This document shows, piece by piece, positions 17,545-34,664 of a DNA stretch of 46,187 bases. The DNA is from Fibrobacterales bacterium. Lineage in GTDB: Bacteria; Fibrobacterota; Fibrobacteria; Fibrobacterales; CADBQJ01. Below the pieces are notes generated by a model, which worked only from the letters and a program-made list of their open reading frames with translations, did no database searches and was not told the origin of the DNA. Position 1 is the stretch's first letter; the number at the start of each line of letters is the position of its first letter. The position numbers were made by a program, and so were the translations under genes. The stretch is from positions 1-46,187 of the forward strand of contig JAGCEZ010000058.1 in the NCBI GenBank assembly GCA_017650365.1. Reading direction: 5' to 3'.

Positions 17545-19164
17545 TCACCGCTCTTGCCGATTACGATCAAACAATGCGCACACTATCTTCGCCAACTGGT
17601 GCGCAAGATAGGGTGGAACGGCATTGCCGACCTGATGATATTGCTCCGTGCGGTTCCCCGCGAAGAAATAGTTGTCGGGGAATGTTTGAAGCCTAGCGGC
17701 TTCCCTGACGGTCAGCGCCCTGCATTGCGCGGGGTCTGGATGTATGAAGTAGTGTCCGTCCTTGGCAATATGCGATGTAATCGTCGATGACGGTTTCCCC
17801 CACAACTGCACCTTGAAACGATCCGCAAAAGCCTGCTCTGCCTCGTTGCCACCGTGGCGGACATTCGAATGAGCAGGCAAAAGACCATCGGGAAATTCCG
17901 CAAGAACAGGTGAATGCCCATGAACGGCGCCGTATGCGGAGACAAAGAGATAACGCCACAAATCACTCGCCATATGTGAACGCGCTTCGTGGTTCAGCGG
18001 CTTATTCAAGCGTCCATCTCTAAACCAGTTGGCGAGATCAACGTCCTTTTTACCACCAGCCGAGAATGCACCGCGTTTGGTCTCAGCATTGCAGATGGCC
18101 TTTCGCACATCAGCGTCTATTTGAGAAAATACGCTGTCTTTCCGAATGCCAAAAACATATTCGCGCCATTCAGCAACGCTCAGCTTCTTTCTTGATCCGA
18201 TTTTCGATATTGAACTGCGCTTCTTGGGAAGACCGCCGATAGCATCTCTAACGGTCCGTTTCACGGTCGAAGGAGCCAGCCTGCCAACTTCGTTCACATT
18301 AGGCAAGAAGTCGTCTCTTATTCCCAGCAAGATTACCCTGTGGCGACATTGTGGAACGCCATACTCTTCCGCACGAATAAGGAAACGATCACCGTTTTCC
18401 GCATTTTCCTCTTTGCCCGTCACGAACGAGAATATGCGATATGTGTGCTTTTTCCTTTTGCCACGTTTTGCCAATTCTGGGAAATAGCTCTTGGCAATCT
18501 CGCAAGGGGAACGCAGGTCATTCAGAATCTTCGCGAAAATGGGCTCATTGTCAACCTTGGCGGAAAGCATACCAGCGACGTTTTCCATCACGAAAACCGC
18601 GGGGGAATGCACGGCAATGACGCGCAGGTACTGCTGATAGAGCCGTTGCCGACTATCCTTGCTGAATTCCACTTCTGCTTCTTCGCGGGATATGTCATTC
18701 TTGTTCTTGATGCCGCCTACGGAACGCGAACGCCCGACGAGCGAATACGCTTGGCATGGCGGTCCGCCGACAAGAAGCCAATCCTTGACGCCGTTGATTG
18801 CTTCAGCGATTCTGGAATCGAACTCCGAATTGGAAACATCTTGACCGCCGAGCTCCGCGCACCAAGCGACACTTTTCGCTTCCTTGGCGGCTTTTTCATG
18901 TGCGCGGAACAGCTCATCACGAGTTGTTTCGCCAGATACATAGGCATAATACTCGTCTGGGAGTTCCAGTCCATTGCGTGTGAAGTAGTGGACGAACGCC
19001 CGCAATTCCAATGTTTTGTATGCAGTCGTGTCCTTCTCTATGGACAAAACCGCCTTGAACGGACGCCTGCCCTCGATTTCGTGCGAAAAACCTTCGCAAA
19101 GACCACCCGGACCAGCAAAAAGATCAATGAAGGGAATGCTTCCCGCATCGCGCCTAATCGTCAT
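17545..19164 (-). CDS. C5-cytosine DNA methyltransferase
   Basis: A 539-residue enzyme. Conserved motifs appear in order: motif I FIDLFAGPGG (12-21), motif IV GGPPCQAYS with catalytic Cys137, motif VI ENV (194-196), motif VIII YGVPQCRHRVILLG, motif IX RALTVREAARLQTFPD and motif X QVGNAVPP. It is longer than simple Dcm enzymes, mainly between motif VIII and IX where target recognition lies. The start at 19164 has a GAGGG site and overlaps the end of the AIPR gene by 11 bases. As the last gene of the GHKL-Z1-nuclease-AIPR operon it presumably marks self DNA. Target sequence cannot be read from the protein. Confidence 0.93.
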   Translation of the reverse strand: MTIRRDAGSIPFIDLFAGPGGLCEGFSHEIEGRRPFKAVLSIEKDTTAYKTLELRAFVHYFTRNGLELPDEYYAYVSGETTRDELFRAHEKAAKEAKSVAWCAELGGQDVSNSEFDSRIAEAINGVKDWLLVGGPPCQAYSLVGRSRSVGGIKNKNDISREEAEVEFSKDSRQRLYQQYLRVIAVHSPAVFVMENVAGMLSAKVDNEPIFAKILNDLRSPCEIAKSYFPELAKRGKRKKHTYRIFSFVTGKEENAENGDRFLIRAEEYGVPQCRHRVILLGIRDDFLPNVNEVGRLAPSTVKRTVRDAIGGLPKKRSSISKIGSRKKLSVAEWREYVFGIRKDSVFSQIDADVRKAICNAETKRGAFSAGGKKDVDLANWFRDGRLNKPLNHEARSHMASDLWRYLFVSAYGAVHGHSPVLAEFPDGLLPAHSNVRHGGNEAEQAFADRFKVQLWGKPSSTITSHIAKDGHYFIHPDPAQCRALTVREAARLQTFPDNYFFAGNRTEQYHQVGNAVPPYLAHQLAKIVCALFDRNRQER

Positions 19165-21235
19165 AAAATCCCTCTTCAATCGCCAGTTTCTCGGCCGCGA
19201 CAAGCACTTTGGCCTGGGCGTCTGAAGGCATCATCCCCTTCGAAATCCTGCAGGCTATTCCAAGAATCGACCGTTCCTTGGAGGACAGGAAATGCTTTTC
19301 TTCGTCCCAAGCCTTCAGCTTCAGCCAATGACTTTCCGGTTTTTCCACGACATACTGGAGCGCCTGGATATCATTCATTTCCCGCTGTGCTTTCTTCGCG
19401 TACCTGTTCTCGTCGGCCACGTCGTTCTTGTTCCGCAGGCATGGTTCCAAAGAACTGCTTAACCGTATAGGCAGCTCCCTGATTTGCTGCCAGCACACTT
19501 CCCGTTTCGCCAATTCCGACACGGAAGTCTGGGAATCCTTGAAGTACTTGATGATGACTCTCGCGACTTCAAGCAGATTCTCCATTACTGGCGCTGGCGC
19601 TTTCTGCCGCTGCCATATCGCACCGTAATCCAGGCAGGAATCGGATTTGCCGATTTCATGGACGAATCTCGCCAGCGTATATGGCACTATCACCGACCGG
19701 AAGCTCCCGAAATCGACCTCGCGCAACATGCCGACCAAGCTTTTGTTCAGCGAACGGAAGAGAATGGCCTGCGCTATCGCGTCCTTGTACCATTTTTCGT
19801 TGATCGACGTGTTATTGCCGTCGTTGCCCTTGTTCTTCTCCCATTCTTCGGTGATGATGGAGACGAAACCTTTTCGGCCACCGGACGTTCCCGCGAAGGC
19901 CTTTTGAGCGCCAAGGCAGACGATTGCGGGCATTTCCTTGAACGTCAGATAGTACTTGGCCAAGTCGGTCTTCGTGAACATCTGCTCTTTCGGATTGAGC
20001 GAGAGGAACCTGGACGCCTCCGATTTTGACAATTTCGTCTGCGCGTTCACATACTGGCCGCGTGCGCGTTCATAGAACCAATGCGTCTGCCGGGGACTGC
20101 CGTCCGACGCGGGTGCCCAAAGTCGCCTCGAAAACTCTTCAATCCGAAGATGGAACGGATGATTTGAGAAGAAGTCGGCGGCATTGACCTTGTTCTGCGT
20201 GTTCGCGTATTCTGAAATCTTCGGAACGATTTCGTTTATCACGTCGCTTTCGATGACGGACAGCTTGACTTGCACGAAGACATTGTCCAGCGGCGCATTT
20301 TCCTTGTGCCATGTCGCGTAAATCGAAGCGGTGGTCTGGCCGCCGTTGACGATCTGCAAGTTCCTGATTTTTTTGATGCGGTTGCGGCTCTTGTCCAAAA
20401 CGACGGCTTCTCCCGTGGCGGAAATGCCGTTGTTGTAAGAGAAGAACATCTCGGGCTGATGCACAATCGTGTTTCGGATTCCCTTGTTCACCTTCCCGCG
20501 GAACTGCAGGAAAGTGCGCACGTTCTGCTCGAAAAGGCGTTCGCCGTATTTTTCATACAAATCGGCGAGAATGCTCCCCGGAAGCACGAAAAGGAAGGAC
20601 TGCAGGGAATCGGCTCCAGTGGAAGCGCTAAGGCAGCTTATGCCTTGCGGCGAATACTGCGTAAAATCGACTTCCAAGGTTTCCCGTTCCAAACCGGAAG
20701 TTTCCAGTTCGAACAACCTCTGGATGTCCCACAAGTCGCAGCGCTTGGCGAATTTGATTCCATATTCGGCCGGCGTCATTTCTTTGACGCGCCCGCTCAT
20801 TTTTGCATCGGTCACTAGAATGAAATCGAACTGGAGCAATTCCTTGTTTTCGCGGATGTATTTGGCGAATGGAAACACCGGATCCGATTCTTCCAGACCA
20901 TCGACGAAATCATCCTTGCCGCAAATCTCAACAAAGCGGTCAAGACGCTTCAGGCTCTTTTCGATATCTGTTTTCGTTATGGTCTCTGCTTCATCGGAAT
21001 TGCGAAAATCTGCGATGATCAACGTGCAACGGTTGCGCTCCGGATCTCTGGCGATGGCGTCGACGGCGATGCCGCGTTGCGTGAACTTGTACCCGACAAG
21101 TTCTGCTTCGTCGATGGCGCCCTGTTCGGCGATGACCGCACACATTTTTTCGACGAACGAATCGCTGACAAAGTCCTCTTCGGAGTCAGCCAGCAGTTCC
21201 TGCTTGAAGTCGGTGTAATACTCTTCGAACGTCAT
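19154..21235 (-). CDS. AIPR-family (abortive infection phage resistance) protein
   Basis: A 693-residue protein. The central region has the AIPR signature: FEQNVRTFLQFRGKVNKGIRNTI, then FFSYNNGISATGE, then LQIVNGGQTTASIYATW and VPKISEYANTQNKVNAADFFSN. The family is named from abortive phage infection and occurs in restriction-like operons; its biochemical role is poorly defined. The N-terminal quarter contains ADFRNSDEAETITKTDIEKSL, which could be a degenerate nuclease-like region, but I do not see a full catalytic set. It lies 8 bases after the PD-(D/E)XK gene and overlaps the methyltransferase gene. Confidence 0.88.
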   Translation of the reverse strand: MTFEEYYTDFKQELLADSEEDFVSDSFVEKMCAVIAEQGAIDEAELVGYKFTQRGIAVDAIARDPERNRCTLIIADFRNSDEAETITKTDIEKSLKRLDRFVEICGKDDFVDGLEESDPVFPFAKYIRENKELLQFDFILVTDAKMSGRVKEMTPAEYGIKFAKRCDLWDIQRLFELETSGLERETLEVDFTQYSPQGISCLSASTGADSLQSFLFVLPGSILADLYEKYGERLFEQNVRTFLQFRGKVNKGIRNTIVHQPEMFFSYNNGISATGEAVVLDKSRNRIKKIRNLQIVNGGQTTASIYATWHKENAPLDNVFVQVKLSVIESDVINEIVPKISEYANTQNKVNAADFFSNHPFHLRIEEFSRRLWAPASDGSPRQTHWFYERARGQYVNAQTKLSKSEASRFLSLNPKEQMFTKTDLAKYYLTFKEMPAIVCLGAQKAFAGTSGGRKGFVSIITEEWEKNKGNDGNNTSINEKWYKDAIAQAILFRSLNKSLVGMLREVDFGSFRSVIVPYTLARFVHEIGKSDSCLDYGAIWQRQKAPAPVMENLLEVARVIIKYFKDSQTSVSELAKREVCWQQIRELPIRLSSSLEPCLRNKNDVADENRYAKKAQREMNDIQALQYVVEKPESHWLKLKAWDEEKHFLSSKERSILGIACRISKGMMPSDAQAKVLVAAEKLAIEEGFYDD

Positions 21236-21243
21236 TTTGCTCC

Positions 21244-22203
21244 TCAGTCGAACGCGATTTCGCTTTCAAAAGGCATGCACGCGTCAAGGCTAATCTGATA
21301 GGTCGCTTTCGTTATCCCCGAAGGAACATTCGCGACCATCAGCCGCGGGAACCCCTCGCCCACCGCGAACGACCTGCTGACAATGCAACGGAAACTGGGC
21401 GAATCGTAGTGCTCGATTGGCTCATAACCCGTCTGCAAGACAAGCGATTCGAAAAGGTCCCTCGTAAAATCGTCGGAACGGTACAACTCGGTCTGGATTT
21501 CCCTGACGAGAGAATTGAGCGTGAACCCGGATTTGTCGTCGGGATTCGTCGTGGCCAGGGTGTTGACCACCAAATAGAGGGAAGGCAGTTGCGTTTCCAG
21601 TTGCTCTAACGAGCTAATGTGCACATACGGTTTTGCGCTTCCAGACTGCACCTTGATTTCCACAGCAATGTCGTGGACAGTGAAATCCTGCGGAGCGCCC
21701 AACGGCCCTTTCCAGAACGAAACGGCGTCTGCCCACCCGAATTTCGGAACAAGGGTTTCCCGCATGAAAAGCAGCTCGCCAATCAGACCTTTGACCTCTT
21801 CCTCGGAAAGCGCATGCTGTTTTTCCCGTTTCAGAAATTCATGCCATCTGCGAAGGCGCCCGACGATGACATTCACGGCTTCGCTGTGATTGGCGTAGCT
21901 TTCGCTTGCATGCGTCAAATCGACGCACAGCGCTTTGAAAATCTCCCAATTCTGCACTTCGTTCAGAAGCAACACCAACCTGCAGCAATCAGGTGCAGGC
22001 GCCATAGCAATGCGTATACCCGCCAGTTCCGGCAACGACTTCTTGTCCGGCGCAGCTTCGCTGGAAAACTGTGCAATGAACAGATAGCCGCCATGTACGT
22101 CTTTTCCCCAGAAGAGTTTCAGCGGATGCTTATCGGAAATCAAGCGCACGCTGTATTCGGAATCCGGCGTGGCAATGTCTTCCCACGGATTGTTGCTCAT
22201 CAT
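21244..22203 (-). CDS. PD-(D/E)XK motif protein (DUF4420-like), probable restriction nuclease
   Basis: A 319-residue protein. The key segment is ALSEEEVKGLIGELLFMRE, then SFWKGPLGAPQDFTVHDIAVEIKVQS: a conserved Glu in GLIGEL, Asp in the HDIAVEIK strand and the E-x-K pair form a PD-(D/E)XK nuclease active site, matching the family annotated as PD-(D/E)XK motif protein. It is the likely DNA-cutting component of the operon. ATG at 22203 overlaps the Z1 gene stop (ATGATGA), implying coupled translation. Confidence 0.85.
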   Translation of the reverse strand: MMSNNPWEDIATPDSEYSVRLISDKHPLKLFWGKDVHGGYLFIAQFSSEAAPDKKSLPELAGIRIAMAPAPDCCRLVLLLNEVQNWEIFKALCVDLTHASESYANHSEAVNVIVGRLRRWHEFLKREKQHALSEEEVKGLIGELLFMRETLVPKFGWADAVSFWKGPLGAPQDFTVHDIAVEIKVQSGSAKPYVHISSLEQLETQLPSLYLVVNTLATTNPDDKSGFTLNSLVREIQTELYRSDDFTRDLFESLVLQTGYEPIEHYDSPSFRCIVSRSFAVGEGFPRLMVANVPSGITKATYQISLDACMPFESEIAFD

Positions 22204-24950
22204 CCGTCCTCCTCGATGTCGTCATCATCGTACTCGGGGATTTCCGCATTATCCTTCAGCCACACCTTGTTGACGGTGTACGAGACCATTTTTTCAGGGC
22301 GCTTTTTCCCAGTAGAATCGCCCGGAAAGCTTATGCAATAGGCCGGAACGACTTTGTGTTCGTCATTCCTTTCACGGCGCGCTTTGTCACCAACGACTTT
22401 TTTCACAGATGAATACACCGACGCGAAAACGAGAATGAGCAACGGTCTGTTGTGATGACGCAGCTTATACCTTCTGAATTCGGCGTCAGGGACATTTTCC
22501 CCATCATACCCTTGCTCGACCGCCTGTATTTCCTCCGGAGACAAGCCTGCGGCTTCGTCACCTCTGGAGAGAACATGTCTCTTGATGAATGTCAGTCGTT
22601 TGCCGGTCAGATTCTGGTCTTCGAGAGAACGTTTAATCGGATCGAATCCTATTCCGGCGCAATGTTCCGCATCCCCGTTGGGATCGCCCTTCAACAGAAC
22701 ATCGCAGAAGGAGATGCCTTTATCCCCTTTCAACCAAGAGAGATGTTCTAGGAGAGGATCTTTTGTCGTCAGCAAGCAATCCGGCGCGTTTTTGAATTCG
22801 CGGGCGACCTTCTCGATGACTTCCAAGGGCACATTCTGCCACAACCAGCCCAACTTTGTTTTTTCTCGCCTAGCGTTTTGGTCGGCGAACTTGACAGCAT
22901 CTTCCAAAACGACCCGGTTGTCGGCTAGCACCTCGTCTTTGTTGATTAGACGGCTTGTTTCCGCACATCTCCCTTCCAACGCAATCTGGCGGACAAATTG
23001 TTCCGCATCGCGCATCTTGTTGCGGGCCGTAACAATCAGCGCCGTGGGATGAGCACGAACCTTTAAGCCAAATTCCATCGGAGTAAGACCGCTCCGCTCC
23101 ATTTCGCGGAAATCTCCACGCAGTTCTTCTACGGCCGACGCTATGTGCGCGTACCAAGAGTAGGACCTCTTCGTCATGAAAAGCCGGCACAGTTTCCCAT
23201 ACCCTTCGCGATAACCGAACCAGCGTCCCATCTGCAGAAGTGTGTCGTACATGACCGAATTTCGCAGGAAATAACTGACGCTCAACCCTTCAAGCGTCAA
23301 TCCGCGGGACAGCCCCAGGCCGCCAACCGCAATGATGGATCTTCCATCCGGATAGTCGTCATAATCCAAACGATCCGTGCTCTTGTTGTTGATGCTGACG
23401 ACGTCAATGGTGCTGACAGATGCGTTGAGTTGTCCTTGGACCTCTGGCCAAGAGAACCGGCGTTTTGCGAACGCCCCTTCTGTTCCTGCGAATTCCTCCT
23501 CCCATGTCTCTTTTAGTTCTCGCAAGAACGGAGATTCGCGCAATGCGGCATTCTCCGGCAACCCGGACCAGGACTTGATTTCGTTCTGCCATTCCCTTAA
23601 ATGCTTCAAGACCGTGCTTTTTAAGTTTTCCTGCACATCGGTGAACCTCGAAACATTAATCATCATGGAATGATGTTTCTGCTTCTGCCCGTCAAGTTCC
23701 CGAATCGTCTTGACTAGCATAAAACAGCGAATTGCCTTTTTCAGCGATTCCGGCAACCCTGGAATGAACGTTTTATCGTGTTTGAGCGGCAACAAATCGT
23801 CGTTGTCGTCGATTTCCCGATAAATGCCGTCTTCGGAATTCTCGCCGAAAACCGTAGTCGGTCCAACGTAATTTGAGGGTGGATCGAGGCTCAAAATGAA
23901 ATCACGCGGGAATAAGTCCCGATACATCTCCCCGTCCGTCATTTCATGTTCGCTTTCAGGAGAAATAAAGATGTTCGCGAACGGCGTGGCCGTGTAGCCC
24001 AAATACGAATTCCGCGGGAACATCTTCAGCAATTCGCGTATTTCTTGGTTGATTCTCGTTGGGTCGCATTCAGCCTTGTTCACGTTGATGCTGGCTTGGT
24101 CGGCCTCGTCGTCAATCAGCAGCAACGGATATTCGCTCAATCTGCTATTGTTACTGGTATCAAGCCAATCCCGCAAACTCTTAAGTGTAGTGGCATTTTT
24201 CTTCAAGACGAGTATGACTGGCACTTTAAGCCCTTCCAACTCGATTTGCATTTGATTGGCAAGTGCCGTCTTAAAATCTTGCGTGGCGCTCGTCATGCTA
24301 AACGGGCGAAGCACGGGATTGAGCGGATCGTCAAATTGGCTAACGCCGATGGGCTTCCGGCATTTGGTGTCATAACCCAGGAAATCGAAATCGATGCGCT
24401 TTTGGGTCTGGTTCCTTAGCGAATTAAGCATACCGCCGAGAACGACAATCACCTTATATCCGGCATCTGCCGCTTTGCACATCACACCGACATAGTTTGC
24501 TGTCTTGCCCGACTGGACATTTCCGACAACCAAACCTTTCCGCTCCCATTTTCCCTCTTTCTTTTGCGGATTTTCGAGATGATCCAATATTTTGTCGGTG
24601 ATTGCATCAAGGCTTTCGACAACATCGCCTGAAAACTTCTTCTGCAACCACTTCTTATAGCGATTCCAATAGAGGAAAGAGATTTCGCCGCGTTTGTCTG
24701 CCAGCCAAGGAACATACGATTCAGGGTCCTCGAACAACGCGCCAAGGCCCATTTTAGTATCGTGGCGCGTGCAAATTCTGTCTACCGCCCCCTTGATTTC
24801 CTCTTCCGTAAATGGGCCGTTTCCGGACAAAAGACTAAAAGACTTCGCTTGCAAACGGACAAACTCCAGCAATCGATCATATGCCGGAATCTCTCCCAAA
24901 TTGGCCAAGTGTGGATAAACGTTATCGACAAAGGCGTCAATGTCTGCCAT
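22200..24950 (-). CDS. Z1-domain superfamily II ATPase
   Basis: A 916-residue protein. Walker A is GNVQSGKT (143-150), Walker B/DExD-like is LLIDDEADQAS, then GYTATPFANIF as motif III and GGLGLSRGLTLEGL with LLQMGRWFGYREGYGKL as motifs V-VI. The QSGKT and LSRGLTLEG signatures are those of Z1 ATPases, helicase-like proteins found in predicted restriction systems with GHKL ATPases. ATG at 24950 is chosen because a GGAGG site sits 5 bases upstream; an upstream in-frame start would overlap the GHKL gene further. It probably couples ATP use to DNA translocation or remodelling for the nuclease. Confidence 0.92.
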   Translation of the reverse strand: MADIDAFVDNVYPHLANLGEIPAYDRLLEFVRLQAKSFSLLSGNGPFTEEEIKGAVDRICTRHDTKMGLGALFEDPESYVPWLADKRGEISFLYWNRYKKWLQKKFSGDVVESLDAITDKILDHLENPQKKEGKWERKGLVVGNVQSGKTANYVGVMCKAADAGYKVIVVLGGMLNSLRNQTQKRIDFDFLGYDTKCRKPIGVSQFDDPLNPVLRPFSMTSATQDFKTALANQMQIELEGLKVPVILVLKKNATTLKSLRDWLDTSNNSRLSEYPLLLIDDEADQASINVNKAECDPTRINQEIRELLKMFPRNSYLGYTATPFANIFISPESEHEMTDGEMYRDLFPRDFILSLDPPSNYVGPTTVFGENSEDGIYREIDDNDDLLPLKHDKTFIPGLPESLKKAIRCFMLVKTIRELDGQKQKHHSMMINVSRFTDVQENLKSTVLKHLREWQNEIKSWSGLPENAALRESPFLRELKETWEEEFAGTEGAFAKRRFSWPEVQGQLNASVSTIDVVSINNKSTDRLDYDDYPDGRSIIAVGGLGLSRGLTLEGLSVSYFLRNSVMYDTLLQMGRWFGYREGYGKLCRLFMTKRSYSWYAHIASAVEELRGDFREMERSGLTPMEFGLKVRAHPTALIVTARNKMRDAEQFVRQIALEGRCAETSRLINKDEVLADNRVVLEDAVKFADQNARREKTKLGWLWQNVPLEVIEKVAREFKNAPDCLLTTKDPLLEHLSWLKGDKGISFCDVLLKGDPNGDAEHCAGIGFDPIKRSLEDQNLTGKRLTFIKRHVLSRGDEAAGLSPEEIQAVEQGYDGENVPDAEFRRYKLRHHNRPLLILVFASVYSSVKKVVGDKARRERNDEHKVVPAYCISFPGDSTGKKRPEKMVSYTVNKVWLKDNAEIPEYDDDDIEEDG

Positions 24951-26472
24951 TGAACTCCTCCTTGAGGATTTCTTCGAACCGTTCACCACTGACTGGCAAC
25001 TCGTTTTGAGAAATGTTCGCTCTGACCGTTTCGTAATTCATTCCAATCGCCCTATACGAAGCAATGAGGTTTCTCACCGCATTCTCCATTTCGTCTTTTT
25101 GCGCTATCGGGACGATTACAGCCTTATCATCGCTGTTGACATCAAGGTGGAACACATCGGACGGGAAGGCTCCGCTGATAATCCGCAGATAGGAGAGCTT
25201 CTGCGCATCGACCTCGCCCTTCTCGTTTTGCACTAGTGCTTTAACAAACGGATGATCGTCATTGATGACATAGCTCACTTTCCCGTCCGAGAACTCGCGG
25301 CGCCAGATGTACACCTTGTCGGAAATAGCCCTTGTGCCTCTTTTTGTGTACGGGCGCTTGCCACGCGAAGACAGTTTTGGCAACAGTTCCTTAAGGCGAA
25401 CCAGCACCGGCAGCGGAGGATACGCGCTGGACTTCTTCACATCCAATTGCCAGAGATGATCCAAGGAGTTGGGTATGTCGATGCGGATCCTGAGCAGTTT
25501 CGTCAGCTCGGTTTTCGGCATGATTCGGAACCACGTGCTCTTTATGATTAGGCGCCTGTTGCGATATACGTAGAATCCCTGGTTGTGCAGATACCCGTCC
25601 TCTCCGCCGCACTTTTCGTAGTCCTGTTTCGACACCTTCGAACTGTGCGGGAGCACAAAAGGCTGTATGACGACTCTGCTTCCTTCTATCGGTATCGTCT
25701 CTTCCTGCAATTCTTGGCGGGCGGGAACAGCCATGCCGAACGGATTCACGCCTTCGACTTCAATGCCGTTGAAATCGATTCTGACGACTCTGCTGCCCTT
25801 TTCCATCACGAAAAAGCGGTGGAACACTAGGCCGATATGTCCGCTGGCGCGCACCATCACTTCGTTGAAATTGCTTGAACCGAAGCCTTTGCTGTCTTCG
25901 GAAAGGTTGTCCAATTTCTGCCAAATGACGATCGTTCCGCTTTCGACGCCATCAAGCCTAGGCAGCAACTCCGCAACAACTCGATCAGCCTTCAACATTT
26001 CAATGGAAGGCAACAGCGCAGTCCATTTCGGATCAGTGGATTCGGAAAGAGCGTCGACGTCCCAGACACATGCTCCGACAGCTCCGGTCTTCTTCGATAC
26101 GACTGTCAACCGTCTGCATTGCGACAAAGAAGCCGTCTTCAGCCCCAAGCCAAAACGACCAAGGTCGGTGGAGCGTCGCTGTGCCGTTGAACAGATTTCT
26201 CCGCCAAAGCGCATTGCCGCTTTCAATTCGTCTTCGGACATCCCGCATCCGTCATCGATGATGGCTATCCAGGGATTGGAGTCGGCCCAGCGGTACTGAA
26301 CTGAAATCGAGGATGCGCCAGCCGCTATTGAATTGTCTATGATGTCCGCCAGAGCAGTATCCAGCGTATAGCCGATGTGGCGCATCGACTGCATCAAAAA
26401 GACGGGATTGGGAACAAGCTCTACGCTATCGCACTGCGTTTTCTGGTCATGTTCTGTTCGTTTTTTTTTCAT
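24937..26472 (-). CDS. GHKL ATPase of the MutL/MORC-like restriction-associated type
   Basis: A 511-residue protein. The Bergerat ATP-binding fold is seen as N box ALADIIDNSIAAGA (about 41-54), G1 box IDDGCGM (72-78), and G2 box GRFGLGLKTAS (105-115), followed by an S5-like middle domain. The opening PNPVFLMQSMRHIGYTLDTALADIIDNSI is typical of the MORC/MutL-like branch found in restriction operons. It is the first gene of the five-gene defence operon; its stop is overlapped by the Z1 start. The coding sequence begins ATG followed by nine A residues, and no Shine-Dalgarno sequence is visible, so expression may be sensitive to slippage. Confidence 0.92.
   Translation of the reverse strand: MKKKRTEHDQKTQCDSVELVPNPVFLMQSMRHIGYTLDTALADIIDNSIAAGASSISVQYRWADSNPWIAIIDDGCGMSEDELKAAMRFGGEICSTAQRRSTDLGRFGLGLKTASLSQCRRLTVVSKKTGAVGACVWDVDALSESTDPKWTALLPSIEMLKADRVVAELLPRLDGVESGTIVIWQKLDNLSEDSKGFGSSNFNEVMVRASGHIGLVFHRFFVMEKGSRVVRIDFNGIEVEGVNPFGMAVPARQELQEETIPIEGSRVVIQPFVLPHSSKVSKQDYEKCGGEDGYLHNQGFYVYRNRRLIIKSTWFRIMPKTELTKLLRIRIDIPNSLDHLWQLDVKKSSAYPPLPVLVRLKELLPKLSSRGKRPYTKRGTRAISDKVYIWRREFSDGKVSYVINDDHPFVKALVQNEKGEVDAQKLSYLRIISGAFPSDVFHLDVNSDDKAVIVPIAQKDEMENAVRNLIASYRAIGMNYETVRANISQNELPVSGERFEEILKEEFNGRH
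26461..26469 (-). repeat. A9 homopolymer directly after the GHKL start codon
   Basis: Nine A bases on the coding strand (nine T on the plus strand) encode three Lys codons immediately after the ATG. Loss or gain of one base would frameshift the first gene of the operon near its start. Confidence 0.9.
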
Positions 26473-26698: not shown

Positions 26699-28231
26699 TC
26701 AGTCCTTCACGCAGCGGACGGAGAGGGCGTGGGACGTATACTCTTCCTCTATGTCGGCCATCCCGCTGCAGAAAAGGGTTGCGGCATACCCCCCGCTCCC
26801 CTCGCCGTTGTAGGAGTCCCAGAGCCAGTCGCCTTTGGACGAAGACCAGAAAACGGCGGTCGTGTCCGCATGGACGAACACGTCGTAGAGATCCCATGTC
26901 CAGATCCACTCGTCCATGAAACCGGCGCCGATCGCCGAGAACCCGTAGCGGTCTTCGTTGGCGCCGCCTCCGCAGTCGGCGATCCACCCGCCGGCCGATT
27001 TGAGCTTTCCGCCCGACGTCGTCCAGTCGTCGTCCTGGCGTCTTTCGTCGACGACGTCGAACAGCACCTCCCATTCCACCGCGTCGGGAAGATGCCAGCC
27101 GCTGGGGCAGACGCCCCGCACCTTGCCGGAGACTCCGCAGTCTTCGTAGCTGCCGCAGCCGGTCGTCGCGGAATCCATCGCGGCGGCCCAGGTGTAGAGC
27201 CGTCCGTAGCGGGCGCAATAGTGGGCGCTGTCGTTGTAGCAGCGGCTGCCGTAGGACGAGTCGGCGATCTTGTAATCGTAGTTCAGGTTTTCGGCCATCC
27301 AGGTGAAGGGGCCGATTCCGACGGTCTTGTAGGTCTGCCCGTCGCGATCGTCGGTCAACGTCCCCTTGACAATGTCGTCCGTGGTCGCGTTCCAGGCGTT
27401 CGAACAGCGCATGCCGCCGGCCATCGAGATTTCCTCGTTCCGGTTGTAGCTGGTGCAGCCGTGGCCCACTGCCCTTTCCAGATTCGTCGCGGCCCGGAAC
27501 GTGTCGGCGTCACAGACGTACAGATTCGTTCCCACGACGGTTCCAGCGACGAGTTCGGCGTTCTTCCCGCAGGGGTTGCCGTAGGCGTCGTATTGGGCGA
27601 ACGTCGATTCTCTCCAGCGTCCGTCGCTGCAGATGTAGTATTCGTCGTCGTACACTTTGCCCACTTCGCGCTCTCGGCCCTGTGTGCAACCGCCGAATCC
27701 GAGATCGACGTCCGCGTCGTCGGTTTCGAGCCAGGAGGCCTGCGTCGAATCGTATTTGTAGCTCGTTCCGGAGACCTCGCCCTGGCGAATCGCACCGTCG
27801 GCCGCGCCGCCCCGCCCCGTCGTGTCGCGCTCCTCGTCGGTGGCGCTTTCCCAGAATGTCCCGTTGCAGATTCTATAGTCTTCGAAATAGGCGCTCAGCT
27901 TGATTTCGCCCTTGTTCGCGTTCCCGCATTCGCCCAGATCGTTTTTCCCCGGGTCGTCCGAACCGCCGACAGGACTCCACAGGCCGTCTTCGCACGCGTA
28001 TTCGGCGCGTTCAACCTCCACGACGGCGGTCTTCCCCTGGAGCGATTCGTCGCAGTCGGGAAGGTCGTCGTAGGAGACGACTTGCAGCCGGTCGTCCTCC
28101 GACGGACCCTCGCCGCCGTTTCCGCCACCCCCGCCGCCGCAGGCCGAAAGAAGAAACGCAGACAACGCCGCGGCCGCGGTCATGCCGTTCAAGACGCCGG
28201 AACGGCGAATCAAGTCCCGGAACTCCGCCAT
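26699..28231 (-). CDS. FISUMP-domain lipoprotein
   Basis: A 510-residue exported lipoprotein: lipobox LLSAC with Cys31, then a Gly-rich linker. Residues about 45-290 hold repeated short modules of the form Y-I/V-C-xDGxWR (YACEDGLW, YRICNGTFW, YYICSDGRWR, LYVCDADTFR), each with a conserved Cys, as in other Fibrobacter surface proteins. Residues about 300-510 are a FISUMP domain: GQTYKTVGIGPFTWMAENLNYDY, CYNDSAHYCARYGRLYTWAAAMDS, GVCPSGWHLPDAVEWEVLFD, FWSSS and the terminal ALSVRCVKD. Function of this domain is not established; it is abundant in Fibrobacter. ATG at 28231 has GGAGG. No functional tie to the defence operon downstream is evident. Confidence 0.92.
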   Translation of the reverse strand: MAEFRDLIRRSGVLNGMTAAAALSAFLLSACGGGGGGNGGEGPSEDDRLQVVSYDDLPDCDESLQGKTAVVEVERAEYACEDGLWSPVGGSDDPGKNDLGECGNANKGEIKLSAYFEDYRICNGTFWESATDEERDTTGRGGAADGAIRQGEVSGTSYKYDSTQASWLETDDADVDLGFGGCTQGREREVGKVYDDEYYICSDGRWRESTFAQYDAYGNPCGKNAELVAGTVVGTNLYVCDADTFRAATNLERAVGHGCTSYNRNEEISMAGGMRCSNAWNATTDDIVKGTLTDDRDGQTYKTVGIGPFTWMAENLNYDYKIADSSYGSRCYNDSAHYCARYGRLYTWAAAMDSATTGCGSYEDCGVSGKVRGVCPSGWHLPDAVEWEVLFDVVDERRQDDDWTTSGGKLKSAGGWIADCGGGANEDRYGFSAIGAGFMDEWIWTWDLYDVFVHADTTAVFWSSSKGDWLWDSYNGEGSGGYAATLFCSGMADIEEEYTSHALSVRCVKD

Positions 28232-28420: not shown

Positions 28421-29365
28421 CTACTTGCGTTTCCGATATTTGTACTTGTTTCGGACTTTCCGTTTCTCGTCTTTGTTTCGGCAGTTCTTCATGTCCGCAA
28501 TCAAAGCGTTCGTTCTACGTTCCAAATCGTCTTTTTCTTTTTGATTCGTTTTCTTTGTCCCCTTGATAGCCAGCGCGGCAAAATCATCCGCACCGATCTC
28601 CATTTTAACGGCCTTCTGGGCTATGCTGGAATTGTTCTTGATGAATTGCTTGATCTCCTTGATGTCTCTTTGTGTTAAATCGAAATTTCTCTTTCCGTTT
28701 AGTTTTTCCTCATGATAGATTTCTCCCTCGGAACTTATCGGATAGAAATCTTCTTTAGAGCCGAAATTATGGCTCTTGTTCATCTGAAATTTCAACCGGT
28801 CACTGCTGTGTTTGGTTGTTCGTTCTTTGTCATCAAGCCAGAAATTTACCGGCGACTCCAAGGCGTCCTTCGACATGTTCGGGTTTTCCACAAGCAACCG
28901 TTCTTCGTCACGCCTATACTCTTCTTCCAACACCCGAAGATGTTTGAAGGCGATTCGATTCGTCTTCTTCCACAACTCCTTTTTGGCCGAAAAGGAAGCC
29001 TTGCGACCGCCAGCTATGAATATCTCATAAAATTCCGTAAAATACAGAAGCTGATCGGCAAGTTTATCAAGTGCATATCTGTTGTTGCGGACGAAATTCT
29101 GAAGGGCTCGAACATCTTCTTCCTCTAGGTCGAAGTACCTGTTTTCCAGCGCCTCGGCAAAATCGTCGTCCGTGATGTCGCCGTTAAGATTCATGGGGCA
29201 CAGATTCCGATACTGCTGTTTTTCGGATCTGTTGATTTGGAACCAGATCTGCTTAGGAAGGCCACAACGTTCGTATCCGTTGGCTTCATCCACCCAAATA
29301 CGCATAGGAAGCCCGGTGTCATTCTGATCCAATTCCGTGATGTAATGAGCGTTCGGTTTCTTCAT
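28421..29365 (-). CDS. Unrecognised two-repeat protein, paralogue of the next gene upstream
   Basis: A 314-residue protein I cannot assign. It contains two copies of the same domain, at about 17-124 and 169-273. Copy 1 reads GLPMRIWVDE, then IWFQINRSE, CPMNLNGDI, DVRALQNFVRNNRYALDKLAD and FYEIFIAGGRKAS. Copy 2 reads SPVNFWLDD, LKFQMNKS, DIKEIKQFIKNNSSIAQKA and DFAALAIKGTKKT. The linker (about 125-165) is charged helix, and the last 20 residues are very basic (KRKVRNKYKYRKRK), suggesting nucleic acid contact. ATG at 29365 has AGGAG 6 bases upstream. No signal peptide or membrane segment, so cytoplasmic. AT-rich relative to the genome core. Confidence 0.72.
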   Translation of the reverse strand: MKKPNAHYITELDQNDTGLPMRIWVDEANGYERCGLPKQIWFQINRSEKQQYRNLCPMNLNGDITDDDFAEALENRYFDLEEEDVRALQNFVRNNRYALDKLADQLLYFTEFYEIFIAGGRKASFSAKKELWKKTNRIAFKHLRVLEEEYRRDEERLLVENPNMSKDALESPVNFWLDDKERTTKHSSDRLKFQMNKSHNFGSKEDFYPISSEGEIYHEEKLNGKRNFDLTQRDIKEIKQFIKNNSSIAQKAVKMEIGADDFAALAIKGTKKTNQKEKDDLERRTNALIADMKNCRNKDEKRKVRNKYKYRKRK

Positions 29366-29393
29366 TTGCTTCTCCTATTTTGATTGTTGACTG

Positions 29394-30356
29394 TTATTTT
29401 CTTCGCGACTGGTTCTTTTTAATGCGCCCTTGTTTCCGTTTCTCGATGTCGGCCTTGATCTTGGCGGATTTGTCGGAACTGCGAGTTGATTTTCTCAAGG
29501 CGCTGGACTTTCGAGATTGCTTTATGCAGTCATCAACCAACCGTTTCTGCAAATCCACCTGCTCTTTGGTAGGGTGCGTGCCATATTTGATGAAGAATCT
29601 TTCTCCGTCGGCAAACGTTATCTCCTGATTCAGTATCTTCATGAGCACATACTCGTTGTTTTGCACAAATTCACCGACCAGCTTCGCGTCTTGAAAAGTT
29701 TTCTTGCTCAATTTGTTGACTTTTCTTACCGAGTTGGGAATTTTCCCATTCATGTCGATGGGGCATTGCCCGTTGCCATCCCTGGTGTCGAACTTGATTC
29801 GTTCTCCATGCGGTGTGTTGGCGAACCTCCCCGTGTCGTCTACCCATAATAACACGGGCAATCCGGTTTTGTTCGGAAAGGATCTGGACATCTCGTTCAA
29901 CATTCCGCGCTCTTCGCATAGTGTTTCGTCCAGCTCTTCCATGGCATTGACGACGTCCCGCAATAATCGCTTTCTTTCAGCAGATGCCTTTCCCGTGCCT
30001 TTAATGCAAATGTCCCAGAAATCCGAGGCCGAAATTCTGCCGTCGGCCACTTCTTTCAGCGCATAGCTATTGTTCGAAGCGAAATTTCTGACGCCAATGA
30101 TGTCCCTATAACACAAATCGCAGTCTTCCTGTTCTTTGATGTCTTCCCAATCGAATTCAAGCTCGCCGTTCAAGGTCATCTGGCAAAAATTCCAGTGTTC
30201 CGGCTTCTCATTCGTGTTGATCTGAAACTCCAAACCAATCTCGTGATCCCTGACCTTATAATCCGTATCTTCGTCAATCAGAATGAACATCGGAAGATTG
30301 GTTTGTTCGGGCCAACCAAGAGCGAGCCGATAGAACTTGTCATCGTCGTTTTCCAT
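29394..30356 (-). CDS. Unrecognised two-repeat protein, first gene of the paralogous pair
   Basis: A 320-residue protein paralogous to the following gene. Copy 1 (about 19-125): NLPMFILIDEDTDY, GLEFQINTNE, CQMTLNGEL, DIIGVRNFASNNSYALKEVADG, SDFWDICIKGTGKAS. Copy 2 (about 154-265): GLPVLLWVDDTGRF, ERIKFDTRD, CPIDMNGKIP, LVGEFVQNNEYVLMKILNQ, FFIKYGT. The C-terminus is Lys/Arg/Ser-rich (RIKKNQSRRK). The strand-strand-helix order faintly recalls DUF4160-like small domains, but this is only an impression. ATG at 30356 is preferred over an ATG 24 bases upstream because AAGGA lies 8 bases before it. The two genes are 28 bases apart and share a promoter. Confidence 0.72.
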   Translation of the reverse strand: MENDDDKFYRLALGWPEQTNLPMFILIDEDTDYKVRDHEIGLEFQINTNEKPEHWNFCQMTLNGELEFDWEDIKEQEDCDLCYRDIIGVRNFASNNSYALKEVADGRISASDFWDICIKGTGKASAERKRLLRDVVNAMEELDETLCEERGMLNEMSRSFPNKTGLPVLLWVDDTGRFANTPHGERIKFDTRDGNGQCPIDMNGKIPNSVRKVNKLSKKTFQDAKLVGEFVQNNEYVLMKILNQEITFADGERFFIKYGTHPTKEQVDLQKRLVDDCIKQSRKSSALRKSTRSSDKSAKIKADIEKRKQGRIKKNQSRRK

Positions 30357-30409
30357 ATGCGTATTCCTTGATAAAGTCAATCGAGCGACATCAGTCCGAT
30401 ACTTATAAT

Positions 30410-30587: not shown

Positions 30588-31445
30588 CTATTTTCCGCTC
30601 GGAGAGCGCCTGCCCTTCCCGCGGTCCTTCTCCCGGCGGATTTTCCGGATCCGCTCGACGAGCTCCGAATTCGCCTCGGCGTCGATCTCCTTCAGGCGCA
30701 GTTCGTTGACCAGCGTCTCCAGGTCGCAGGGTTCCTCCTCGCCGTCGAAATAGTTCGCGGGCGAAGGACGGCTCCACTTCTGCTTGTCGTTCCGGAGCTC
30801 GGCCTCCGCCTGGTTCCATTTTTCGACGAACCTGCGCGCGGCCGTTTCGAGTTCCTTCTGAATCATGTGGCCGACATGGAAATACCGGGACCCGAAGCCG
30901 CCGCAATCCTCGTGGTGCGTCCGACCGCACCGGGGACAGATCGCCTCGACCCAGCCGCTGCCCGAAAGCGGCGAGCCGGCGAACTCCCGGACGTAGGCGA
31001 CGGCGCCGCATCCGCACGGAACCTGGAACGCCTCGTTCCCCCAGATGTCGGAAAGAAGCGTCCCGAGCGTGATCCGAATCTTGCTCTCCATGCCGGCGAG
31101 GCGGAAGCCCGTCGCGGTGAGCAGCGGGCCGACGTAGGCGCCGCCGCCCTCCAGCGCGCAGCTGGCGTCGGCGTTCGCGTAGCGCGGCGTCTTCAGGATC
31201 TCCTCCTTGTGGCGGAGGACGAGCGCGAGGTTGTCGTAGAGCAGCTTGCGCCGGCGTTTCAGGGTTTTGCGCCAGATCTCGCCCATCTTCTTCAGGTCGG
31301 CGGCCGCCTGGCGCATCTCGTCGCTGACGGGCGATAGCCCTGCCTCCTGCCGCTTCAGAAACGTCGTGATCGAGCCCTTTCCGTCGTCGGGCGTCTTGAG
31401 CAGTTCATCGATGGACTTCTTGTCGTCGAACACGATCTTCGACAT
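30588..31445 (-). CDS. Zinc-ribbon-like protein of an unrecognised family (large paralogue)
   Basis: A 285-residue cytoplasmic protein. A conserved block RRRKLLYDNLALVLRHKEEI with TPRYANADASCALEGG (about 64-101) is shared with the protein encoded immediately upstream. A Cys cluster follows: CGC (144, 146), CPRC (170, 173), GRTHHEDC (181), which looks like a zinc ribbon, preceded by the shared SDIWGNEAF. The C-terminal ETLVNELRLKEID segment is also shared, then a basic tail (RIRKIRREKDRGKGRR). No named domain recognised. It is the last gene of the AAA+ operon, 11 bases after its paralogue, with a GGAGG site. High GC, unlike the neighbouring two-repeat pair. Confidence 0.72.
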   Translation of the reverse strand: MSKIVFDDKKSIDELLKTPDDGKGSITTFLKRQEAGLSPVSDEMRQAAADLKKMGEIWRKTLKRRRKLLYDNLALVLRHKEEILKTPRYANADASCALEGGGAYVGPLLTATGFRLAGMESKIRITLGTLLSDIWGNEAFQVPCGCGAVAYVREFAGSPLSGSGWVEAICPRCGRTHHEDCGGFGSRYFHVGHMIQKELETAARRFVEKWNQAEAELRNDKQKWSRPSPANYFDGEEEPCDLETLVNELRLKEIDAEANSELVERIRKIRREKDRGKGRRSPSGK

Positions 31446-31456
31446 GATGCGCCTCC

Positions 31457-32056
31457 TTACTTCGCTTCGTTTTCCGCCGCCGCGACGCCGTCCTGCTGTC
31501 GGAGTTCCCGGATCACCGTTTCGATGGTCGCCTCGGGCTCGCCCTCCGCCACCGGTTTTTCGGCAAGCGCGGCCGAGGCCTTTTCGACCTGGGCGTCGAA
31601 AATTCGCTCAACGACCTCGCGGACGAGACTCGGGGCCAGCTCCCCCCCGCCGCGCCAAGTCCGACCGCACTTGAGGCATCGGTAGACTCCCCGGCATCTC
31701 CGCGAATTCCAGGTTCCATAGTAGATGAAGACCCGCACAAGGCGCGTCGTCCCGTCGCACCTTCCCACGCCGCAGTGGCAACGATCCTTGAAAACGTCCG
31801 TTTCCCAGATGTCGAGAAGGGAACTCAGCGACAGACGGACTTCGTCGCCGCCAGCGCCCTCCGCAAGCCTCCTGACGTCATCCGAGAAGAAGAAGCAGCA
31901 AGGCATGAAGCCGTCGAGGGCGAAGCTCGCGTCGACGTTCGCGTAGCGCGGCGACTCCTGGATTTCCTTCCGATGGCGGATCAGGAGGTCCATGTTGTCG
32001 TAGAGCAGCTCCTTTCTCCGTTCGGACTCGCTGTTTTGGTTCACGTCTTTCGCCAT
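31457..32056 (-). CDS. Zinc-ribbon-like protein of an unrecognised family (small paralogue)
   Basis: A 199-residue cytoplasmic protein. It shares with the downstream gene RRKELLYDNMDLLIRHRKEI, SPRYANVDASFALDG, LLDIWETDVF and a Cys cluster: CHC (93, 95), Cys100, Cys121 and CLKCGRT (127, 130). The C-terminal TIETVIRELRQQ also matches. It lacks the N-terminal 50 residues and the basic tail of its partner. Two non-identical zinc-ribbon paralogues in tandem suggest a hetero-oligomer or two adaptors for the AAA+ ATPase upstream; this is inference. ATG at 32056 has GGAGG, 22 bases after the ATPase stop. Confidence 0.72.
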   Translation of the reverse strand: MAKDVNQNSESERRKELLYDNMDLLIRHRKEIQESPRYANVDASFALDGFMPCCFFFSDDVRRLAEGAGGDEVRLSLSSLLDIWETDVFKDRCHCGVGRCDGTTRLVRVFIYYGTWNSRRCRGVYRCLKCGRTWRGGGELAPSLVREVVERIFDAQVEKASAALAEKPVAEGEPEATIETVIRELRQQDGVAAAENEAK

Positions 32057-32078
32057 GATGCACCTCCCTGTTTCCGCC

Positions 32079-34568
32079 CTACAGCCCCATCCTGCGGACG
32101 GAGGAGGAGCCCTTCTTCGCGTCGATTTCGCGACGGAGCGCCTTGAGAACGGCCTCCTGCGTCACTTCGCTCTCCTCGTGCCAGCGGAAGGCGCCGTGGA
32201 CGGCGTTGAAGTCGCCGGGCGCGAGGTTCGGGAGCGAGAGGGCCTCTTCGGCGACGGGCACGCCCGGGAAGAAGACCTCCCAGAGCCTACGGATCCCCTC
32301 CGGCTTCAGGAAGCCGAACTTCAACTTGATCGCGAACCGGCGGTTGCTCGCGTCGTCCAGCGACTTTTCGAAGTTGGTCGCGGCGACGAAGATCCCCGTG
32401 AAGTTCTCCATCTGCGTCAGCAGCTCGTTGACGTGCGTCGCCTCCCAGCTCTGCCTCGCCCCGGCGCGGTCGCGCAGCATGCTGTCGGCCTCGTCCAGGA
32501 AGAGAATCGCCTTCTTCTCCTCGGCCTCCCTGAACATCGCCGAGATGTTCTTTTCCGTCATCCCGACGTACGGGTCGAGCAGATCGCTCGCGCGCTTGAT
32601 CAGCAGCTTGCGGTCCAGCTTCCGCGCCAGATGGCGCGCGTACTCGGTCTTGCCCGTGCCGGGAGGGCCGTAGAGCAGGACGTTGAGCGACTCGGGACGC
32701 TCGCCTTCGCGGAACTCCTTCCAGCGTTCGTCGAACTTCCGCACGACGCGTTCGACGCGGTCGAGTTCGTCGTCGATGTTCAGCACTTCGAGCGAATAGC
32801 CCGGGGCGTGCGTTTCCGTGTCCCGCTTGCGGAATTCGCGGTCCAGTCCGAGCAGCTCCAGCTGCCCCTCGGCGATGGTCCGCACCAGTTCGGCGGCGGG
32901 CGTCTTCACGCCGGCCTTCTTCAGGCGGAGCGCCCCCGCGATCGCCTGCGTCGCCCCGCCGGCGGCCACCGGAAGCTCGGCCGAGATCCGTTCCAGCTCG
33001 TCGTCGGTCAGCAGCCCTTCCGCCTTCTGCGCCTTGACGACGGAACGCCAGACGCTCAGCCGCTTTTCCGCGTCGAGCCGCATGAACTTCAGCGAGAAGT
33101 CGAACCGGCGCTTCGTGCTCGCCTCCACGCAGCCGATGTTGTTCGAAATCCAGACGATCGGAATATTCAGCTCCTCGAGGAAGAAGTTGAGGGCGCCCTT
33201 CTCGCATCCGTTGAGGATGAGGTCGGCTTCGTCCACCAGGAGAACCGCCTTCTTTCCCCTGTATCTGTGCGCGGCGTAGGCGATCCTCGCCAGACGGGAC
33301 TGGATGGGGCCGTCTTCCCGGCTTTCGCGGTTCCCGCCCAAGGTGCTGACGTTGGTGAGCACCAGCGGGCGTTTCAGCTTGCGCGCGACCGCCTTGACCA
33401 GCTCGGTCTTGCCGGTTCCCTCGACGCCGTAGAGGAAGAGGTTCAGCGCCTGCCCCGGCTGGGCGTGCTTCAGAAGCTGATAGAACATCTCGACCTTCGG
33501 ATTCCCCTGCGCGAGCCGGGCGTAGGGAACGGAGGGACCGTCGTAGATCCGGAAGAAGACCGAATCGAGGTCGTCGCCCGCGGCGCCGCGCAGAAAGCCG
33601 CAGAGCAGCGAGGAGAGCTTGAACTCGTTGTTCAGGATGCGCATTTTCCGAAGCGTCCCGTCGGCGCGCAGGACCCTGTCCAGGCCGTTCCGCCGGAAAA
33701 CCGTCGAATAGCAGGTGCCGAAGGCGCGTTCGTCGAACCGCATCCCCCCCGAGACGCAGCACTGCGCGACCGGGCCGCAGATCTTCTTCCGCAGGAAGAC
33801 CCAGGAGAAGACGACCACCTCGGTCTCCTCGTCGTCGAGCCCGTAGGTCTCCTTGAGAATCGAAACCCGGCGGAAGAACGGATCGTCCGCGCGGCACTCG
33901 GCGTTTTCGAGGATCGAGAGGAGTTCGGCGCCCATCGCCTCGTAGAAGACCTTTTTCGTCTCGCTCCCGAAGATCGCGTCATAGTGCATGTAGTGGCTCA
34001 CCAACTGCTGCATCTCCTCGCGGGCGTCGTCCTTTTCGAACAGTTTCTGCATGTCGCGGACGGCGCGGAACCGCTTTGTGTATTCGGATCCGTCGCCGCG
34101 GCGGAGTTTCAGCGTCTGCTCGTCGGCGGAGGGCTTGAAGAAGCGGAGCTTCAGTTCGCCGCATTCGTCCTCGTCGGCATCGTCTTCGTCTTCGTCTTCG
34201 TCGATGCAGACGCCGCAGTCCCCGAGGTTGATTTCGAACGAGCGCTTTTCGGAACCGGCCGCCGTCGGCGCGGCGAGCTTCGCGTCGATTTTCCGCCGCT
34301 CGCGCAGGCAGACCTTTTCAAGATGTTCCCCGACGCTCGAAATGACCTTCAGCGCGTTTTCGTACGGCAGGACCGCGATCGCGTCGTCCAGGTCGGGGCG
34401 CCTGTCGTCGGCCTTCATCGTCTTGATGTACCGATACCAGTACTCGTAGCCCTTCAGCGTCACGAAGTCGAGCTTCGAGATTTCGTCGCTGACGCCCGAG
34501 GCGCCCTTGAGTCCTTTGACGACCTTGTCGAAATAGCCTTTCACGGCGGATGTTCCGTTCTTTTGCAT
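32079..34568 (-). CDS. Double AAA+ ATPase with a large unrecognised N-terminal domain
   Basis: An 829-residue protein. Residues 1-350 are not recognised and include an acidic run (DEDEDEDDADEDE, about 123-135). The first AAA module has Walker A GVEGTGKT (about 381-388), Walker B LLVDEAD (about 443-449) and KRRFDFSLKF as sensor/arginine-finger region. The second has GPPGTGKT (about 634-641), LFLDEAD (689-695), and NRRFAIKLKF. Both sites look intact, as in Cdc48/FtsH-like remodelling ATPases. ATG at 34568 is chosen because AAGGAG lies exactly 6 bases upstream; two upstream in-frame ATGs have poorer sites. First gene of an operon with two zinc-ribbon paralogues, so a macromolecule-remodelling complex is inferred. 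Confidence 0.82.
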   Translation of the reverse strand: MQKNGTSAVKGYFDKVVKGLKGASGVSDEISKLDFVTLKGYEYWYRYIKTMKADDRRPDLDDAIAVLPYENALKVISSVGEHLEKVCLRERRKIDAKLAAPTAAGSEKRSFEINLGDCGVCIDEDEDEDDADEDECGELKLRFFKPSADEQTLKLRRGDGSEYTKRFRAVRDMQKLFEKDDAREEMQQLVSHYMHYDAIFGSETKKVFYEAMGAELLSILENAECRADDPFFRRVSILKETYGLDDEETEVVVFSWVFLRKKICGPVAQCCVSGGMRFDERAFGTCYSTVFRRNGLDRVLRADGTLRKMRILNNEFKLSSLLCGFLRGAAGDDLDSVFFRIYDGPSVPYARLAQGNPKVEMFYQLLKHAQPGQALNLFLYGVEGTGKTELVKAVARKLKRPLVLTNVSTLGGNRESREDGPIQSRLARIAYAAHRYRGKKAVLLVDEADLILNGCEKGALNFFLEELNIPIVWISNNIGCVEASTKRRFDFSLKFMRLDAEKRLSVWRSVVKAQKAEGLLTDDELERISAELPVAAGGATQAIAGALRLKKAGVKTPAAELVRTIAEGQLELLGLDREFRKRDTETHAPGYSLEVLNIDDELDRVERVVRKFDERWKEFREGERPESLNVLLYGPPGTGKTEYARHLARKLDRKLLIKRASDLLDPYVGMTEKNISAMFREAEEKKAILFLDEADSMLRDRAGARQSWEATHVNELLTQMENFTGIFVAATNFEKSLDDASNRRFAIKLKFGFLKPEGIRRLWEVFFPGVPVAEEALSLPNLAPGDFNAVHGAFRWHEESEVTQEAVLKALRREIDAKKGSSSVRRMGL

Positions 34569-34580: not shown

Positions 34581-34642
34581 CTTTCGCATTGTATCCTCTT
34601 TCTTTCGGTCCGTCTTTCCCATTCCCGGAAGATAACAAGCGT

Positions 34643-34664
34643 ACTATGACAAGTATGTCGTAGT
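34643..34664. promoter_or_regulatory. Dyad upstream of the AAA+ operon
   Basis: CTATGACA (34644-34651) and TGTCGTAG (34656-34663) are inverted arms with one mismatch around AGTA. An outer imperfect pair flanks it: CCCATTCCCGGAA (34618-34630) and TTCGGGAAATGGG (34672-34684). Nested symmetry upstream of an operon head suggests a regulator site. Confidence 0.4.

Follow-up and report, generated by a model that had tools for sequence, protein, structure and literature searches.

Does a double-AAA+ ATPase gene followed closely by two zinc-ribbon paralogues mark a dedicated three-part machine, or are such genes held together in some other way? The question is raised by a stretch of 46,187 nucleotides from a Fibrobacterales bacterium (GCA_017650365.1, contig JAGCEZ010000058.1, positions 1-46,187; hereafter the window), in which the ATPase gene and the paralogues, here called PAR1 and PAR2, form one operon (Table 1). 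The reading that we favour, with a probability of about 0.6, is drawn from sequence comparison and takes the operon to be a DriD-type, WYL-WCX-controlled unit, predicted to be induced by DNA damage (ssDNA) or phage stress independently of the SOS response, and encoding a putative remodeller together with accessory PARs.

Table 1. Features of the operon, its candidate promoter and the neighbouring genes in the window.
Feature	Position	Strand	Remarks
Operator-like inverted repeat ACTACGAC-ATACTT-GTCATAGT	34643..34664	-	upstream of ATPase; DriD-type half-sites, 6-bp spacer
-10-like hexamer TATCTT	34629..34634	-	22 nt past left half-site CGAC
Double-AAA+ ATPase	32079..34568	-	829 aa; Walker A/B, sensor and arginine-finger motifs intact in each module
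PAR1, zinc-ribbon paralogue	31457..32056	-	199 aa; divergent, with an end branch of 2.96 changes per column
PAR2, zinc-ribbon paralogue	30588..31445	-	285 aa; nearer family consensus (CxCG...GSPLSG...CPxCG)
Two paralogous orfs (314, 328 aa)	28421-30380	-	repeated 'TGLPxxIWVD...' unit, 45-47% G+C
FISUMP-type lipoprotein	26699-28231	-	between MZA and the two paralogous orfs
MZA anti-phage system, complete	17545..26472	-	PADLOC/NCBIfam matches; judged outside operon
MzaB	26472-24937	-	PADLOC/NCBIfam
MzaC/Z1	24989-22200	-	PADLOC/NCBIfam
MzaD	22203-21244	-	PADLOC/NCBIfam
MzaE/AIPR	21235-19154	-	PADLOC/NCBIfam
Cytosine methyltransferase (MZA)	19203-17545	-	PADLOC/NCBIfam

Operon layout and the two protein families

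The compact layout reported in a preliminary description of this locus can be read directly from the sequence for all three genes: 22 bp separate the ATPase from PAR1 and 11 bp PAR1 from PAR2, with good ribosome sites before the ATPase start at 34568 (AAGGAG), PAR1 (GGGAGG) and PAR2 (GGAGG). An alternative in-frame ATG upstream, at 34622, would extend the ATPase to 847 aa. The start at 34568 is preferred because it agrees with the ribosome site and with how relatives align and because, with TATCTT as the -10 element, ATG 34622 would fall at the transcript start.

Both ATP sites of the ATPase are intact, as had been claimed. The first AAA module carries GVEGTGKTE at 381, LLVDEAD at 443, WISNN at 473 and KRRFDFS at 486, the second GPPGTGKTE at 634, LFLDEADS at 689, AATN at 729 and NRRF at 742, and all of these motifs are invariant or nearly so in an alignment of 20 relatives. 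The protein looks like a putative remodelling machine, in line with the original proposal. Its N-terminal region is as unfamiliar as first thought: residues 1-375 gave no domain match in Pfam, NCBIfam or PADLOC, where the AAA modules alone are recognized and no named family past AAA emerges, and the AlphaFold2 model of this region is poor and unusable (pLDDT 50). Among PHROG families the ATPase best matches phrog_10401, a phage ATPase family. For the second AAA module, NCBIfam and PADLOC both rank IetA first, but the window ATPase reaches 136.5 bits against a cut-off of 510 and differs in its double-AAA architecture; no match to the subtilase partner IetS was detected among the six window proteins run against PADLOC and NCBIfam. 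CDC48/VCP-type double-AAA+ remodellers share the two intact AAA modules and provide the best PDB sequence matches, but have a different N-terminal domain, and the window protein scores 78 bits against the CDC48 cut-off of 803.

The ATPase belongs to a family much wider than that of the PARs, and its usual neighbour is a WYL-WCX regulator, which directly adjoins it in 17 of 39 close ATPase loci and also stands beside ATPase relatives on Desulfosarcina, Leisingera and Novosphingobium plasmids. Apart from that of Desulfosarcina, these more distant plasmid relatives are assigned mainly on the second AAA module and gene context, since region 226-600 alone matched only Desulfosarcina among plasmids. 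Fibrobacter also holds a second, paralogous ATPase-WYL cassette (loci L248, L253 and L259 in genomes G022, G058 and G061), with an ATPase 37-38% identical to the nearest one of the analysed set and with DriD-type operators of its own. Neighbour proteins were grouped by all-against-all BLAST into clusters (labelled c2, c5, c7 and so on), c2 being the WYL-WCX regulator. Small c12, c23 and c15 genes (about 203, 125 and 136 aa) lie closely 3' of the ATPase in several genomes (L098, L102, L115), in the place that PAR has in the window; the c12 and c15 proteins tested had no Pfam match.

The paralogues constitute an undescribed zinc-ribbon family. PAR1 and PAR2 are 31-40% identical, depending on the alignment, and contain the shared blocks LLYDN, PRYANxDAS, DIW and CxC...CxxCGRT just as the preliminary description had listed them. 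Across 28 family members the cysteines C144, C146, C170 and C173 (PAR2 numbering) do not vary, and PAR1 lacks the family's GSPLSG loop. Profile checks upheld the novelty of the family: neither paralogue had a significant match in Pfam, NCBIfam, PADLOC or PHROG, and a fold search of PAR against PDB and BFVD found nothing at E<=0.001. In the AlphaFold2 model of PAR2 (mean pLDDT 86.1, pTM 0.73), helices accompany a beta-rich zinc-ribbon core, and the C-terminus is long and helical. Profile searches detected PAR homologues in 51 of 168 Fibrobacterota genomes and 4 of 41 genera, all within the order Fibrobacterales; a pattern-based scan of genomes of 84,980 species found PAR in Fibrobacter, Fibrobacteraceae and Fibrobacterales records only, and none was found in viral contigs, plasmids or phages. 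Because PAR recurs across the phylum to this extent and an ATPase homologue is present in 64 of 113 genomes of the order, the locus is not a chance arrangement.

Linkage between the ATPase and PAR families

A fixed AAA+/PAR/PAR system, the candidate originally put forward, does not fit the comparative data. Direct ATPase-PAR adjacency occurs at 2 of 51 PAR loci and 2 of 39 close ATPase loci, and in the PAR tree the window tandem lies apart from the Fibrobacter tandem pairs, grouping with a genus-g7 sequence (PAR1 is a very long branch, and this join may suffer from long branches). The two adjacent loci were apparently assembled separately. Tabulating the neighbours of homologues, a check that had been suggested at the outset, identified the WYL-WCX regulator rather than PAR as the conserved partner of the ATPase. 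On co-occurrence, by which the proposed system was to stand or fall, the answer is divided: adjacency is rare, but the families are closely linked, with 13 of 51 PAR loci within 15 kb of a close ATPase against 0.35 expected (for uniform placement in a 3.2-Mb genome, which ignores shared island hot spots), and they share a promoter element, described below.

One way to read this pattern, possible but on balance doubtful, is that the PARs serve variable Fibrobacterales islands as small regulators or accessory factors that bind nucleic acid, mechanistically unrelated to the ATPase; as part of the same doubtful reading, the adjacency would reflect reshuffling inside the island plus a common promoter. 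Consistent with this, the zinc ribbon weakly resembles RPB12, topoisomerase and NrdR-type ribbons (not significant alone), the median PAR pI is 8.1, and PAR neighbours vary, including recCBD, MoxR/DUF2201-VWA, Fic and calcineurin-like phosphatase genes. The tight spacing 3' of the ATPase in the window is, however, left unexplained by this reading alone.

Unlikely, and more so than the preceding reading, is a dedicated three-part defence or stress machine in which the PARs would be adaptor or target-recognition subunits docking on an ATPase hexamer. The tightness of the operon, the close linkage within 15 kb and the presence of a PAR pair beside a close ATPase in a further genome (G072, locus L076, 93 bp) all argue for such a machine, and the long helices that the model places around the zinc ribbon would be plausible for an adaptor. 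Yet adjacency is rare, the gene order in G072 is reversed and the PAR clades differ, two genomes (G021 and G065) have PAR and no ATPase match at E<=1e-40 in a search of the order, and PAR is missing from many genomes with an ATPase (genome-level odds ratio 3.2, p 0.02).

PAR genes often lie just upstream of recC-recB-recD in Fibrobacter (L040, L042, L044, L048, L064, L067 and others); RecC was considered as a member of the regulon described below but is not supported, since despite this frequent proximity the operator core was present at only 1 of 15. A separate island operon combines a c7 protein, a MoxR-type AAA protein and a DUF2201 vWA protein (L059, L070, L074, L076, L118), and the c7 genes carry a CGAC-N7-GTCG-type promoter element in several loci.

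A shared, probably DriD-type promoter and its candidate regulator

In a first scan, ATPase upstream regions suggested a recurring palindrome, CGACA-GTATT-TGTCG, which then turned up in front of other island genes as well, WYL and PAR among them. The operator of DriD, ATACGAC-N7-GTCGTAT, lies over the -35 region at a fixed distance from the -10 element (PMC12340889), and a promoter of the form CGAC-N7-GTCG-N11-TAnnnT is common to the ATPase, WYL, PAR and several island genes of Fibrobacterales. Using the core from the literature, CGAC-N7-GTCG, within 250 bp upstream and all genes of the same loci for comparison, with identical upstream regions counted once, we found the core at 23 of 38 close ATPases (p 3e-15), 16 of 25 WYL genes (p 9e-12), 15 of 53 PAR genes (p 2e-5) and 9 of 15 cluster c5 genes, against 68 of 870 other genes; enrichment was also strong for clusters c20, c36 and c17 (Fic). 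Spacers of N6 or N8 between CGAC and GTCG were not enriched in these loci. TAnnnT begins exactly 11 nt past GTCG in 51 of 74 sites, and at 80% protein non-redundancy this offset is still enriched (ATPase 5/17, PAR 5/24, other genes 8/761), while no other offset is. These promoter tests followed inspection of the same loci, with the core taken from the literature and the discovery not blind. Across 12 Fibrobacteraceae genomes, the full pattern gave 58 matches versus 12 for a reversed-pattern control, upstream of genes that include WYL, ATPase, Fic and clusters c5, c33, c7, c12 and c72. On a Novosphingobium plasmid, where WYL and ATPase genes are divergently oriented, a perfect CGAC-N7-GTCG lies between the two. 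PAR sites often have a degenerate left half (TGAC, AGAC), which speaks against the DriD-type reading. Co-regulation of the ATPase and PAR families is nevertheless well supported. Since the two are rarely neighbours elsewhere yet share this switch in relatives, they are better seen as members of one stress regulon than as a fixed three-part machine.

The window site, TACGAC-N6-GTCATA, is a near match to the DriD core, from which it differs in its spacer of 6 rather than 7 bp and in one half-site, GTCA. It is the only exact match to TACGAC-N6-GTCRTA in the 2.08-Mb genome, and the distance from its left half-site to the -10 element equals that of the Fibrobacter promoters (N7 + 4 + N11).

Across genomes the sites track the c2 WYL regulator: sites were present in all 10 tested genomes whose c2-type WYL scored above 250 bits, and four tested genomes without one show no site or one dubious match. 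The best solved relatives of the c2 profile are PafC/PafBC and other WYL regulators, and the structure entries 8tp8/8tpk listed among them are DriD. Against a DriD-type reading, genome G003 encodes a divergent c2 homologue (193 bits) and has no site, and no c2-type WYL was found in the window genome, whose one WYL-WCX gene lies on another contig (C124:6177-7205) and encodes a distant protein. PAR occurs without a c2 WYL in two genomes, G021 and G065, so another WYL regulator or none may act there. A BrxR-kind repressor could likewise use a site over the -35 region.

DriD is the WYL-WCX, ssDNA-activated DNA-damage activator of Caulobacter, and mycobacterial PafBC is taken with it for comparison; the Fibrobacterales ATPase, WYL and PAR families likewise have the CGAC-N7-GTCG core, a site over the -35 region and a fixed -10 distance, and the c2 regulator of Fibrobacter is related to PafC. 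The targets differ, DriD acting on bapE, didA, recJ and dnaG and the Fibrobacterales promoter preceding AAA+ ATPase, PAR and island genes, and unlike in the DriD regulon the Fibrobacterales regulator usually adjoins its target. A second comparison is offered by the ARG-centred, WYL- or Nudix-regulated conflict systems of Iyer et al. 2022 (PMC9503650). The Leisingera plasmid relative has genes for an AAA ATPase, a WYL protein, an ADP-ribosylglycohydrolase with phosphatase, a PD-(D/E)XK nuclease and a UvrD helicase, and Fibrobacter islands also contain genes for WYL and vWA proteins and for calcineurin-like phosphatases; the section of that paper on these systems does not name double-AAA+ ATPases. 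In the window, no ADP-ribosylglycohydrolase match (PF03747, Pfam) was found in the operon or its neighbours, the next genes being MZA, and the operon contains no WYL or Nudix regulator.

Genomic surroundings and the predicted regulon

The operon had been placed next to a restriction-type island. The adjoining island is real, but it is a standard MZA defence system, and its G+C of about 50% is far below that of the operon (63-65%; flanking core about 68-73%), so the operon need not have arrived with it and their adjacency says little on function. A MutL-like ATPase, Z1, MzaD, AIPR and DNA methyltransferase, which together define MZA, are found among the neighbours and not in the operon. That the operon is an accessory part of MZA, complete on the same strand about 4 kb away, is highly improbable, as two orfs and a lipoprotein gene intervene, the G+C contents differ, MZA does not recur in the tabulated PAR and ATPase neighbourhoods (a tabulation rather than an MZA profile search), and the operon has a predicted promoter of its own. 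The two orfs of 314 and 328 aa had no family match and were not found in the related Fibrobacter loci examined. A simple empty-site test was tried, and a clean insertion site could not be shown because the lpxA side of the sister genome runs into purF, not obgE.

A stress or defence setting, suggested from the start, is likely. Operon layout, motif integrity, family distribution, the promoter with its fixed spacing and WYL adjacency are computed observations. From these we infer which kind of regulator would act and a course of events in which ssDNA would accumulate, a WYL-WCX activator would bind over the -35 region, at the TACGAC...GTCATA repeat, and the operon would be switched on. The double-AAA+ protein would then use ATP to remodel protein or protein-nucleic-acid complexes, and the PARs, made simultaneously, would serve as accessory factors that bind nucleic acid or client complexes, not as obligate subunits. 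A more specific version, in which a WYL-switched ssDNA-damage response pairs the remodeller with PARs as interchangeable target-binding adaptors and protects from phage or replication damage, is speculative and improbable as it stands.

The regulon reading replaces an unknown three-gene system with a concrete prediction, that of a DriD-like DNA-damage regulon in another phylum, Fibrobacterota. A widespread double-AAA+ ATPase would be one of its main targets and an undescribed zinc-ribbon family would supply co-regulated members, and the promoter element offers a handle for locating the remaining regulon and for probing the role of the ATPase.
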